A stretch of DNA of 64,000 nucleotides, from positions 4,943,501-5,007,500 of the forward strand of contig NZ_CP030032.1 of the NCBI RefSeq assembly GCF_003258315.1, in the 5' to 3' direction. The position numbers were made by a program, and so were the translations under genes. This DNA is from Bradymonas sediminis. GTDB lineage: Bacteria; Myxococcota_A; Bradymonadia; Bradymonadales; Bradymonadaceae. The notes under the pieces were generated by a model. The model was not told where the DNA came from, ran no database searches, and saw only the letters and a program-made list of their open reading frames with translations. Of this stretch, positions 48,225-52,018 are shown one piece after another. Positions within the stretch are counted from its first letter, which is position 1. Each line of letters opens with the position of its first letter.

Positions 48225-48409
48225 CCACTATCCCGGTTAAAATCATGCGCGGTCAAACCCCGCGCCATCTACTCATAACACGATTTGCCCAGACCGAAAT
48301 ATCGCGCAAGCATCGGCGCGCATTCCCGGTCTTGTCAGTACCGACTTCCTGCACTAACGTCGCAGCCGTTCTGCAACCCGCGTCACTTACCACAACGACC
48401 CGATATAAT

Positions 48410-49309
48410 ATGTCAAACTCATACCAAACACCACGCGTCCCCGCTGTCGACCAGGTCGGCGTCGAGGAGCGCGCCGCCCGTTTTAACACGCGCAGCATCA
48501 AGAAAGGCGCGAAACTCGCCGGCCTGGATATGGCCATCTCGATGATCGACCTGACCACGCTGGCCGGCGACGACACGCCGGGCAAAGTGCGCATGTTGTG
48601 CCGCAAGGCGCTGCGTCCGTCGGCGACGCTTGAGACCCCCCAGGTCGCCGCGGTTTGCGTGTACCCGAGCATGGTCAAGGTCGCCGTCGAAGAGCTCGCC
48701 GGCAGCAAAATCAACGTCGCCTCGGTGGCGACCTATTTCCCCAGCGGGCAGACCACGATGCGCGAGCGCCTCGAGGACGTCAAAAGCGCGGTGGGCGACG
48801 GGGCCAGCGAGATCGATATGGTCATCAACCGCGGCGCCTTTTTGTCGGGCGAGTACGCGCGGGTCTTTGACGAGATCTGCCAGGTGCGCGCGGCCTGCGG
48901 CGACGCCCACCTCAAGGTCATCCTGGAGACCGGCGAGCTGCACACCTACGATAATGTGCGCCTGGCCAGCCAGATCGCCATCGACGCCGGCGCGCATTTT
49001 ATCAAGACCTCGACCGGTAAGATCAGCCCCGCGGCGACCATGCCGGTGACGCTGGTGATGCTGCAGACCATCCGCGACCACTACCTCCAGACCGGCAAGA
49101 TGGTCGGCATGAAGCCCGCCGGCGGCATCCGCGACACCAAGACCGCGCTGCGCTACCTGATTATGGTCAAAGAAACCCTGGGTGATGCCTGGTTGAACCC
49201 CGATTGGTTCCGCTTCGGCGCCTCCTCGCTGCTCAACGACCTGCTGATGCAAATCGAGAAGCAGCATAGCGGGCATTATCACTCCAGTCGCTATTTGAGC
49301 ATCAGCTAA
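48410..49309 (+). CDS. deoC: Deoxyribose-phosphate aldolase
   Basis: 299 aa from the ATG at 48410 (MSNSYQTPRVP); the in-frame ATG 165 bp upstream overlaps the divergent promoter region. It splits 2-deoxyribose-5-phosphate into acetaldehyde and glyceraldehyde-3-phosphate. The class I aldolase signatures are visible: AISMIDLTTLAGDDTPGKV near the start, EIDMVINRGAF, KVILETGEL, HFIKTSTGK (Schiff-base Lys) and GMKPAGGIRD. The following aldehyde dehydrogenase genes could oxidise the acetaldehyde produced. Confidence 0.95.
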   Translation: MSNSYQTPRVPAVDQVGVEERAARFNTRSIKKGAKLAGLDMAISMIDLTTLAGDDTPGKVRMLCRKALRPSATLETPQVAAVCVYPSMVKVAVEELAGSKINVASVATYFPSGQTTMRERLEDVKSAVGDGASEIDMVINRGAFLSGEYARVFDEICQVRAACGDAHLKVILETGELHTYDNVRLASQIAIDAGAHFIKTSTGKISPAATMPVTLVMLQTIRDHYLQTGKMVGMKPAGGIRDTKTALRYLIMVKETLGDAWLNPDWFRFGASSLLNDLLMQIEKQHSGHYHSSRYLSIS

Positions 49310-49351: not shown

Positions 49352-50827
49352 ATGAATAAACCCACCGATATGAAAAACCTGCTCTTCGGCGACCTGTGGG
49401 ACTACGCCCCCGCGCCGCAGTCCACCGAGATGGTGAAGCTCAAGAAGCGCTACGGGCATTTTATCGACGGCGAATTCGTCGAGCCCGAGGGCGCGACCTA
49501 TTTTAAGACGGTGAACCCGGCGACCGAGGAGCCGCTGGCCGAGATCGCCTCGGCCGACGAGGCGACCGTCGATCGGGCCGTCAAAGCCGCGCGCAAGGCG
49601 TACGAGACGGTCTGGCGCGATATGCCGGGGGCCGAGCGCGCCAAATATATTTACCGCATCGCGCGGATTATGCAGGAGCGCGCGCGTGAGTTGGCCGTGC
49701 TCGAGACGATGGACGGCGGAAAGCCCATCCGCGAGTCGCGCGACGTCGACGTGCCGCTGGCCGCCGCGTATTTCTTCTATTACGCCGGCTGGGCCGACAA
49801 GCTCGAGTACGCGTTCCCGGGCGCCAAGCCCACGCCGATCGGGGTCGCCGGGCAGATCATCCCGTGGAACTTCCCGCTGCTGATGGCCGCCTGGAAGATC
49901 GCGCCGGCGCTGGCCGCCGGCAATACGGTGGTGCTCAAGCCCGCCCAGACCACGCCGCTCACGGCGATGCTCTTGGCCGAGATTTTCCAGGAAGCAGGGC
50001 TCCCGGCGGGCGTGGTGAACTTCGTCAACGGCGCCGCCGAGACCGGCAGCGCGCTGGTCAATCACCCCGACGTCGACAAGATCGCCTTTACCGGCTCGAC
50101 CGGCGTCGGGAAGCTCATCCAGCGCCAGATCGCCGGCACCGACAAGCGTTTGACGCTTGAGCTTGGCGGCAAGGGCGCCAATATCGTTTTTGACGACGCC
50201 CCCATCGACCAGGCCATCGAGGGCATCGTCAACGGCATCTTCTTTAACCAGGGCCACGTGTGCTGCGCCGGCTCGCGCCTGCTCGTGCAGGAGAGCATCC
50301 ACGACGAGGTCATGGCCAAGCTTAAGACCCGCATGGCGACGCTTCGGGTGGGCGACCCGCTGGACAAAAATACCGACGTCGGCGCCATCAACTCGGCCGC
50401 GCAGTACAAGCGCATTCAGGAGTTGATCGAGGTCGGCGTGGCCGAAGGCGCCGAGCTCCACCAGGCCCAGTGCAGCCTGCCGAGCACCGGCTATTTCCTG
50501 GCCCCGACCGTCTTCACCGGCGTGACGCCGTCGCACCGCATCGCCAAAGATGAGATCTTCGGCCCGGTCCTGTCGGTGCTGACCTTCCGCACCCCCGAAG
50601 AAGCCATCCAGAAGGCCAATAACACCGCCTACGGCCTGGCCAACGGCGTCTGGACCGACAAGGGCAGCAAGCTCTTTAAGATGGCCAACGCGCTCAATTC
50701 CGGCGTGGTCTGGGGTAATACCTATAACCGATTCGACCCGACCAGCCCGTTTGGTGGCTTTAAGGAGAGTGGCTTCGGCCGCGAGGGCGGACGTCATGGC
50801 CTGCTCGGGTATCTGAACATCGGCTGA
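49352..50827 (+). CDS. NAD(P)-dependent aldehyde dehydrogenase
   Basis: 491 aa, full length. The coenzyme-binding PWNFPLLMAAWKIAPALAAGNTVVLKP, FTGSTGVGK and the catalytic Glu270 (LELGGKGANIVF) and Cys304 (NQGHVCCAGSRL) are all present, followed by DEIFGPVLSVLTF and SPFGGFKESGFGREGG. It oxidises an aldehyde to the acid. Being 42 bp after deoC, acetaldehyde from deoxyribose breakdown is the likely substrate. Confidence 0.93.
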   Translation: MNKPTDMKNLLFGDLWDYAPAPQSTEMVKLKKRYGHFIDGEFVEPEGATYFKTVNPATEEPLAEIASADEATVDRAVKAARKAYETVWRDMPGAERAKYIYRIARIMQERARELAVLETMDGGKPIRESRDVDVPLAAAYFFYYAGWADKLEYAFPGAKPTPIGVAGQIIPWNFPLLMAAWKIAPALAAGNTVVLKPAQTTPLTAMLLAEIFQEAGLPAGVVNFVNGAAETGSALVNHPDVDKIAFTGSTGVGKLIQRQIAGTDKRLTLELGGKGANIVFDDAPIDQAIEGIVNGIFFNQGHVCCAGSRLLVQESIHDEVMAKLKTRMATLRVGDPLDKNTDVGAINSAAQYKRIQELIEVGVAEGAELHQAQCSLPSTGYFLAPTVFTGVTPSHRIAKDEIFGPVLSVLTFRTPEEAIQKANNTAYGLANGVWTDKGSKLFKMANALNSGVVWGNTYNRFDPTSPFGGFKESGFGREGGRHGLLGYLNIG

Positions 50828-50906: not shown

Positions 50907-51869
50907 ATGGCAAAAACGGCGCCTAAAAAGACAACGAAAAAGACGTCCGAAGACAACAAACCCGCGGCCAAAAAATCGACCCAAAAGTCGACCACCCCCG
51001 CGCGTCTTGCCGTCTCAAAGACCTATAAACTCTATATTGGCGGCAAATTCCCGCGCACCGAAAGCGGACGCACGCTCCCAGTCACCGACTCAAACGGAGG
51101 TTTCGTGGCTCATATCTGCCATGCCTCACGCAAAGATTTTCGCATGGCCACGGTCGCCGCACGCAAAGCCCAGCCCGCCTGGGCCGCGCGCACCGCGTTT
51201 AACCGCGCCCAGATCCTGTACCGCATGGCCGAGATGCTCGAGACCCGCCGGCGCGACTTCGAAGCCGCGCTCACCGAGACGGTCGGTTATAGCGAGGCCG
51301 ACGCGGTGGCCGAGGTCGACGCCTCTGTCGACCGCCTGGTGTGGTACGCCGGTTGGTCCGATAAATACTCGCAGCTCTTCGGCTCGGCGAACCCGGTGAG
51401 CTCCCCGCACTTCAACATCACCACCCCCGCGCCCACCGGCGTGGTCGCCATCTTCTCGCCAAAAAACGCCCCGCTCCTCGGCCTGATCACCGCGCTCGCC
51501 CCGGTCGTCGTGTCCGGTAATACCGCGGTCATCATCGTCGAGAACGACGCCCCGACCCTGGCCATCGACTTCGCCGAAGTCCTCAATAATAGCGACCTCC
51601 CCGGCGGCGTCATCAATGTGTTGACCGGGCTTCGCGACGAAGTGCTCGAGAATGTGGCAAGCCACAAAGACCTCGACGCCATCGTCTGCTACGGGGCGAG
51701 CGCCGAGCAGAAAAAGACCATCGCGACGCTGGCGGCGGATTCGGTGACGCGCACGTTCTTCTACGACGATCCGAAAGCCGCGGAGCTATGCGCCGCGGCA
51801 CACCAGAGCCCGTATCGCATCGTCGACTGCGTCGAGTTTAAGACGGCGTGGCATCCGATCGGGATTTGA
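50907..51869 (+). CDS. Half-length aldehyde dehydrogenase-like protein lacking the catalytic domain
   Basis: 320 aa. The first 36 residues are Lys/Thr/Ser-rich (MAKTAPKKTTKKTSED...), histone-tail-like. The rest matches the coenzyme-binding half of aldehyde dehydrogenase (KLYIGGKFPRTESGRTLPV ... RAQILYRMAEMLETRR ... GVVAIFSPKNAPLLGLITALAPVVVSGNTAVII ... DLPGGVINVLTG), then ends. The conserved Glu and the catalytic Cys are missing, and the stop falls near residue 320 of about 490. Codon use resembles the neighbours, so it looks maintained rather than decayed. It follows the intact dehydrogenase by 79 bp and may be a regulatory or structural partner. Confidence 0.85.
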   Translation: MAKTAPKKTTKKTSEDNKPAAKKSTQKSTTPARLAVSKTYKLYIGGKFPRTESGRTLPVTDSNGGFVAHICHASRKDFRMATVAARKAQPAWAARTAFNRAQILYRMAEMLETRRRDFEAALTETVGYSEADAVAEVDASVDRLVWYAGWSDKYSQLFGSANPVSSPHFNITTPAPTGVVAIFSPKNAPLLGLITALAPVVVSGNTAVIIVENDAPTLAIDFAEVLNNSDLPGGVINVLTGLRDEVLENVASHKDLDAIVCYGASAEQKKTIATLAADSVTRTFFYDDPKAAELCAAAHQSPYRIVDCVEFKTAWHPIGI

Positions 51870-51891
51870 TTTTTAGATGAGGACGTAGACG

Positions 51892-51922
51892 AAAAAGCCG
51901 CCCTGGGAGGGGCGGCTTTTTT
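51892..51922 (+). terminator. Terminator after the deoC-aldehyde dehydrogenase cluster
   Basis: A 12-bp stem (AAAAAGCCGCCC/GGGCGGCTTTTT) has a 6-nt loop and a T6 tail. It lies 22 bp after the stop codon. Confidence 0.92.
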
Positions 51923-51936
51923 GCTCTGAGCGGTGA

Positions 51937-52018
51937 GAAATTCGGAGCCAGACTATCTTAGTCTGGGGTGGTCGAGGACCGAAAAATTCGGAGCCAGACT
52001 ATCTTAGTCTGGGGTGCT
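51937..52018. repeat. Two tandem copies of a hairpin-bearing element
   Basis: GAAATTCGGAGCCAGACTATC...GGGGTG occurs twice at a 46-bp interval. Each copy contains the perfect 8-bp hairpin CCAGACTA-tct-TAGTCTGG (51948-51966 and 51994-52012). They lie between the plus-strand terminator and the stop of the minus-strand tyrosine phosphatase gene. Confidence 0.75.

Follow-up and report, generated by a model that had tools for sequence, protein, structure and literature searches.

Subunits of canonical aldehyde dehydrogenases (ALDHs) pair by packing a hairpin and the C-terminal strand against the partner subunit. The oligomerization domain of these enzymes is named in a review that also describes ALDH16 as mimicking the ALDH tetramer with two chains (PMC8160307). 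In Loktanella LsALDH16 (PDB 6mvr, 6mvs, 6mvt, and 6mvu), a pseudo-ALDH domain comes after the catalytic ALDH domain. Human ALDH16A1 is presented, in the sections of a review that treat it, as an ALDH16-family pseudoenzyme thought to act through protein contacts, and the same sections list no known substrate for the animal member (PMC10650815). Deoxyribose-phosphate aldolase (DeoC) yields glyceraldehyde-3-phosphate and acetaldehyde, according to portions of two papers (PMC8346489, PMC4207490); the latter portion places DeoC with an aldehyde dehydrogenase in sugar-phosphate-utilising microcompartments, where the dehydrogenase possibly forms acetyl-CoA inside the shell.

Here, we analyzed a 64,000-nucleotide stretch of the Bradymonas sediminis genome (the window) in which a 320-codon gene follows deoC and an ALDH gene. 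The short gene and the gene upstream of it look like a two-gene (split) ALDH16 beside deoC. The domain order is that of LsALDH16, except that the domains are separate genes in the window, and split forms constitute a clade apart from fused ones. Unlike human ALDH16A1, compared by its description in the review (PMC10650815), the first domain retains its catalytic residues. Each part has the fold of canonical tetrameric ALDHs (ALDH1/2 type), whereas each window protein is without what its partner keeps. An acetaldehyde-releasing aldolase beside an aldehyde dehydrogenase also recalls the microcompartment system as outlined in the portion cited (PMC4207490), although the window has an ALDH16-type pair in the place of that dehydrogenase. 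In the open-licence papers searched, we found no description of a two-gene ALDH16, which is not proof that none exists. The features of the locus are as follows.

48413..49309, + strand: deoC, deoxyribose-phosphate aldolase (TIGR00126 match, PF01791)
49352..50827, + strand: catalytic subunit, ALDH of 491 aa (best PDB match, 6mvr residues 9-475)
50907..51869, + strand: pseudo-subunit, 320-aa ALDH without the catalytic domain (best PDB match, 6mvr/6mvu residues 498-737)
50907..51014, + strand: Lys/Thr-rich N-terminal tail of 36 residues, predicted disordered (pLDDT, composition)
51366..51437, + strand: oligomerization hairpin retained in the pseudo-subunit, about residues 154-177 (alignment; modelled strands 160-162 and 169-176)
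51831..51854, + strand: C-terminal oligomerization strand, residues 309-316, within the motif E.KT.WHP.G (model strand; 80/80 nearest relatives; structure alignment reaching the C-terminal end of solved ALDHs)
51892..51922, + strand: terminator-like hairpin and T run closing the three-gene operon (folding energy)

Relationship of the gene pair to ALDH16

An earlier note, made from the letters of the window, had proposed that the short gene is a maintained, non-catalytic partner behind deoC and an intact dehydrogenase. Both upstream genes are present on the same strand, and the ALDH is catalytically intact. The deoC product scored 184 bits against TIGR00126, above the equivalog cut-off of 117.3; the match begins at residue 98 of the longest ORF, which starts at 48245, and the start at 48413 was chosen from the match range. 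Gaps of 42 bases (deoC to ALDH) and 79 bases (ALDH to short gene) separate the three genes, and the latter two are separate ORFs in different frames. The short ORF is intact, with an ATG start and 320 codons, and the note's remark on normal codon use agrees with our scores for its core: 0.72, compared with 0.549 to 0.769 (median 0.695) for 26 other ORFs of the window and with 0.29 and 0.33 for the wrong frames of the same gene. The tail by itself scored lower (0.546). No in-frame ATG, GTG, or TTG lies between codon 1 and the conserved core, and codon 1 is the earliest start codon in the open frame, so the tail should be translated. The strong terminator that the note had placed after the gene is borne out by folding of 51885-51930 (-29.1 kcal/mol, z -6.15), while the hairpin at 51892-51922 was absent from the list returned by a simple consensus scan for terminators.

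One solved protein, the bacterial ALDH16 6mvr with both domains in one chain, was the best match of both window proteins in a sequence search of the PDB. Over the ranges listed above, the 491-aa protein matched with E 2e-165 and 554 bits (next best family, ~438 bits), and the 320-aa protein matched the second domain with 137.5 bits, versus 69 for the catalytic one in that chain. A structure model of the short protein, built from the window sequence and 33 relatives, reached a mean pLDDT of 82.4 and a pTM of 0.79, with low values (about 36-48) over the first 50 residues. Foldseek placed ALDH16 entries at ranks 1-3 for this model, with canonical ALDHs close behind (E 3.6e-20 versus 2.9e-19). Canonical ALDHs scored Z 31-33 in VIA-align, whose 50 listed matches included no ALDH16 entry. 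About 265 of ~490 residues were aligned, in a range covering the canonical chains nearly from first to last residue; such a near end-to-end alignment shows that the gap is internal, the protein retaining its start and its C-terminal strand but not the catalytic domain between them. For the catalytic subunit, the model was less confident, with its weakest stretch at residues 425-479. By phylogeny, the catalytic domain forms one clade with the fused forms against 14 canonical ALDHs (SH-aLRT 100).

Both domains are closer to ALDH16 than to canonical ALDHs, and a catalytic ALDH domain lies upstream of a pseudo-ALDH domain that is without the catalytic segment. Given that the domains occupy separate ORFs and not one polypeptide, we assign the pair as a split variant and not as ALDH16 in the strict sense. 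The short protein is not a canonical ALDH, as catalytic Cys, Glu, and Asn are absent, and its relatives display neither the relaxed selection nor the variable truncation points of a pseudogene. A conserved helper subunit, rather than a broken enzyme, is the most likely description. The gene occurs in many bacterial genomes under no other name than "aldehyde dehydrogenase family protein," and its likely identity there is the second half of ALDH16.

Complementary anatomy and a possible joint assembly

We aligned 103 catalytic (N) domains, 103 pseudo-ALDH (C) domains, and 10 canonical ALDHs, with four very divergent canonical rows left out. Median lengths of the catalytic segment are 216 residues for canonical ALDHs, 211 for N domains, and 34-37 for C domains. 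The hairpin segment follows the opposite trend: 20 residues in canonical ALDHs, 12 (10-21) in split and 10 in fused N domains, versus 23 in split and 20 in fused C domains. Five of 141 split loci have 18-21 residues in the N hairpin segment, but these form Gly/Ser-rich loops that do not resemble the canonical hairpin. All four catalytic residues (Asn, Lys, Glu, and Cys) occur in 103/103 N domains; the C domains have not conserved the first three, and 103/103 have a gap in the Cys column.

At the C terminus, a simple pattern for the strand motif matched 0 of 155 N domains. All 80 nearest C domains end in E.KT.WHP.G, where random truncation points would have spoken for decay. In a wider set, the strict pattern was found in 112 of 141 split and 10 of 14 fused loci; the remainder are variants, some with an extension, and WHP is absent from nine split loci. 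The 103 + 103 + 10 alignment itself does not place this strand on its canonical counterpart, and the assignment draws on a separate sequence comparison, the structure model, and the VIA-align range.

These comparisons refine the statement that the short protein stops before the catalytic region. Catalytic Glu and Cys are indeed absent; its last residues, however, correspond to the canonical C-terminal oligomerization strand, and the catalytic domain (~210 aa in other ALDHs) is gone from the middle, leaving the coenzyme-domain fold, the hairpin, and the strand. The 491-aa ALDH has the full set of catalytic residues, a shortened hairpin, and no C-terminal strand. As read from the sequences, each partner has dropped what the other keeps, a clear case of reciprocal loss.

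We therefore favor, at roughly 80% probability, an ALDH16 made of two polypeptides, in which the pseudo-subunit completes the assembly of the catalytic subunit and the complex oxidises acetaldehyde supplied by DeoC. The 491-aa subunit would bring the coenzyme and catalytic domains, minus most of the hairpin and the C-terminal strand used for pairing, and the 320-aa subunit, with a coenzyme-domain fold devoid of catalytic residues, would supply hairpin and strand in trans. The pseudo-subunit would dock on the catalytic subunit like the second half of a canonical ALDH dimer, and two such pairs may combine into a complex with the shape of the ALDH tetramer, which fused ALDH16 is reported to reach as a dimer of two chains. 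Since ALDH16 mimics the tetramer with two chains, the two-gene form most likely reaches the same assembly with four. DeoC would free acetaldehyde from deoxyribose-5-phosphate, and the complex would oxidise it with NAD to acetate; this activity of the pair we infer from gene order. The two-gene form makes the role of the pseudo-domain testable by simple co-expression, which is hard in a fused protein.

The description of a good coenzyme-binding half holds for the fold, and less so for the ligand. The NAD-binding Lys is lost, being replaced by Val, Ile, Leu, or similar (among the residues listed for this position, Lys appears in 0 of 103 aligned pseudo-domains), and NAD binding by the short protein is doubtful on this basis. 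The same substitution bears on a role as an NAD(H)-binding regulator or redox sensor that tunes the catalytic subunit and does not complete its assembly. The kept coenzyme-domain fold and the Gly of the FTGS motif, present in 64/89 split and 12/14 fused C domains, would suit such a sensor; we nevertheless judge it improbable because of the replaced Lys and because the parts retained beyond the fold are the hairpin and strand that the partner is without.

Distribution, gene order, and selection

A scan of one genome per species recovered at least 563 confirmed relatives, of which the best 80 were kept. These 80 are mostly from Actinomycetota and also include Salinivenus and its kin and one metagenome-assembled genome (MAG) from the window's own order; the catalytic gene is in place in 77 and deoC in 76, with the misses at contig ends. 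The nearest relative of the window gene is 73% identical. Profile matches were found in at least 50 genomes of a 282-genome sample of the window's phylum, one of them a canonical ALDH (G021), and, at E 1e-50, in at least 61 of 246 and 42 of 198 genomes of the phyla represented by loci L005 and L002. These counts are lower bounds, as eight candidates were scored per genome and the true partners in G091 and G103 were thus missed.

Among 162 inspected loci (some genomes repeated), 144 are split, 14 are fused, and four have no neighbor, three of these at contig ends and one (L180) genuinely. The order deoC, ALDH, and short gene, which the earlier note had suggested seeking elsewhere, recurs in Actinomycetota, Bacteroidota/Rhodothermota, and the window's phylum. 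deoC lies upstream in 126 of the 158 loci with both domains (14/14 fused and 112 split); in the other 32, all split, no more than 71 bases of available sequence precede the catalytic gene. The median distance between the deoC and ALDH matches is 24 bases (maximum, 938). Fused forms come from six Pseudomonadota records, six genomes of the window's phylum, and two genomes of the L002 phylum sample. Open frames of 480-1150 aa at some short genes were not taken as evidence, since chance alone can keep a frame open in GC-rich DNA; the 823-aa frame of G027, for example, belongs to a split form.

This steady link to deoC provides a first substrate hypothesis for the ALDH16 family, namely acetaldehyde from deoxyribose-5-phosphate. 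Two hits to the nucleoside phosphorylase C-terminal family (pyrimidine-nucleoside phosphorylase type) in the B. sediminis genome fit deoxynucleoside use. Less probably, the pair forms as proposed and acts on another aldehyde, with the deoC link reflecting a different sugar route. In annotated Pseudomonadota regions, deoC directly precedes the fused gene (2361-2397 bases, "aldehyde dehydrogenase family protein") in 5/5 and ribokinase is present in 4/5. Ribokinase, mutarotase, and sugar ABC transporters give these fused forms a sugar-catabolic setting that speaks for the favored reading; RbsD/FucU proteins, aldose epimerases, and sugar transporters, which are not deoxyribose-specific, would also suit another sugar route. 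In addition, deoC is not near the short gene in two genomes (G661 and G564). Against a different aldehyde stand the upstream deoC in 126/126 loci with sufficient upstream sequence and adjoining domains and the release of acetaldehyde by DeoC, as given in the portions of the papers cited for it (PMC8346489, PMC4207490).

The two partners of the proposed complex are also found together. In the 282-genome sample, a catalytic match at E 1e-128 occurs in 56 genomes, five of which were set aside as canonical (G021 and G101 by inspection; G064, G066, and G078 by 47-50% identity). Fifty of the 51 remaining ALDH16-type catalytic genes have a partner, 48 by profile and two (G091 and G103) on direct inspection; the contig of the single exception, G007, ends before the partner's place. 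Conversely, 48 of the 49 genomes with a true pseudo-domain are among the 51; in the remaining one, G128, the catalytic gene next to the partner is interrupted (L154). At L180 (G661) and L203 (G564) of the Bacteroidota sample, the short gene stands apart from its catalytic partner: the catalytic gene, 70-71% identical to that of the window, is on another contig, and no deoC lies near the short gene in the stretches examined. At L066 and L154, the open frame of the catalytic gene is broken, by either sequencing error or real loss.

Selection was measured among relatives. Group medians of dN/dS for the short gene were 0.045-0.207 in eight groups (single pairs, 0.024-0.278), with a ninth group saturated, and values for the catalytic gene were 0.018-0.164. 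A reading of the short gene as a copy of the upstream ALDH that is decaying and persists by linkage would agree with its absent catalytic residues and with dN/dS somewhat above that of the catalytic gene, clearly so in five of the eight groups. A decaying gene is scarcely credible when every pair measured lies far below 1, when 62 columns are invariant in 34 relatives (~50-60% identical to the window protein) and the end motif is constant, and when the gene is retained where unlinked and the same domain is kept by the fused clade. The proposal of a maintained partner is thus supported by gene order, end motif, low dN/dS in relatives, and fused versions. A C-terminal truncation or frameshift was rejected, as the stop codon is followed by the terminator and no catalytic remnant and the end motif is conserved; gene order in the nearest relatives and dN/dS speak against a random duplicate.

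Evolutionary distances of the two subunits correlate at 0.93. The partial correlation is 0.61-0.65 (0.61 being the value given DeoC), versus 0.53 for the catalytic subunit and DeoC given the pseudo-subunit, an excess that adds slight, weak support for coevolution of the pair. In a tree of 103 non-redundant pairs (89 split and 14 fused; quick search with no mixture model), the split and fused states require one change (support, 100). With canonical ALDHs as the outgroup, catalytic domains form one clade (100) containing split (98) and fused (99) sister clades; long branches were flagged among the canonical rows. The outgroup roots between the two clades, a placement compatible with either fusion or fission coming first.

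Both forms occur in one family of the window's phylum (f33), where G234 (L157) is split and G136 (L164) and G230 (L165) are fused, each falling in its own clade; this points to horizontal transfer of the whole deoC-ALDH unit. Salinivenus-type operons (L002, L004, and L174) nest inside the window's family in a tree of both domains, which suggests transfer between phyla. More speculatively, and in our estimation unlikely, ALDH16 might by origin be an enzyme of deoxyribose breakdown whose pseudo-domain acts, across a large share of the bacteria, as an obligate subunit in its own right. The pair would then form a 2+2 complex, possibly with DeoC docked and handing on acetaldehyde, and the orphan animal ALDH16A1 would descend from this nucleoside-sugar pathway.

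The N-terminal tail and the downstream repeats

The first 36 residues are Lys/Thr-rich as described (9 Lys, 7 Thr, net charge +8). The epithet "histone-like" did not survive comparison, as the tail is lineage-specific and not conserved among relatives. In 134 split relatives, the length up to the conserved core is 23 residues or fewer in 105, 24-79 in 21, and 80 or more in eight, the longest values being partly due to uncertain start choice. In near relatives of the same family, the starts are short and contain Lys, for example MAKKAKRERL and MATSKKKSTATSTRL, and one has an acidic tail. A nucleic-acid-binding or histone-like function would draw on the lysines and charge within these 36 residues and on Lys-rich tails in Streptomyces abyssalis (L029) and some others. 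We hold it to be very unlikely, since most relatives have short tails with dissimilar sequences, some long tails are acidic (L089) or possible wrong start choices, and fused proteins have a variable linker at the same place. A disordered, drifting tail is the simplest reading.

Immediately behind the operon, at 51945-51966 and 51991-52012 of the window, are two palindromic repeats of the form GAG + CCAGAC(C/T)ATCTT(G/A)GTCTGG. With up to two mismatches, the repeat has 32 to 48 copies in its own genome, depending on the variant; most of them share a strand, and they are often arranged in tandem, with units of 44, 108, or 124 bases. It is present in only three of 39 relatives, its own genome included. 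The genome has nine Y1-type transposase-family matches, including a weak one (26.6 bits) situated between two repeat arrays at 2524707. The repeat variants alter both stem sides together, with ATCTT, TTCTA, or CTCTG between CCAGACC and GGTCTGG; this paired variation is as expected of a conserved hairpin. The repeat recalls REP-like elements.
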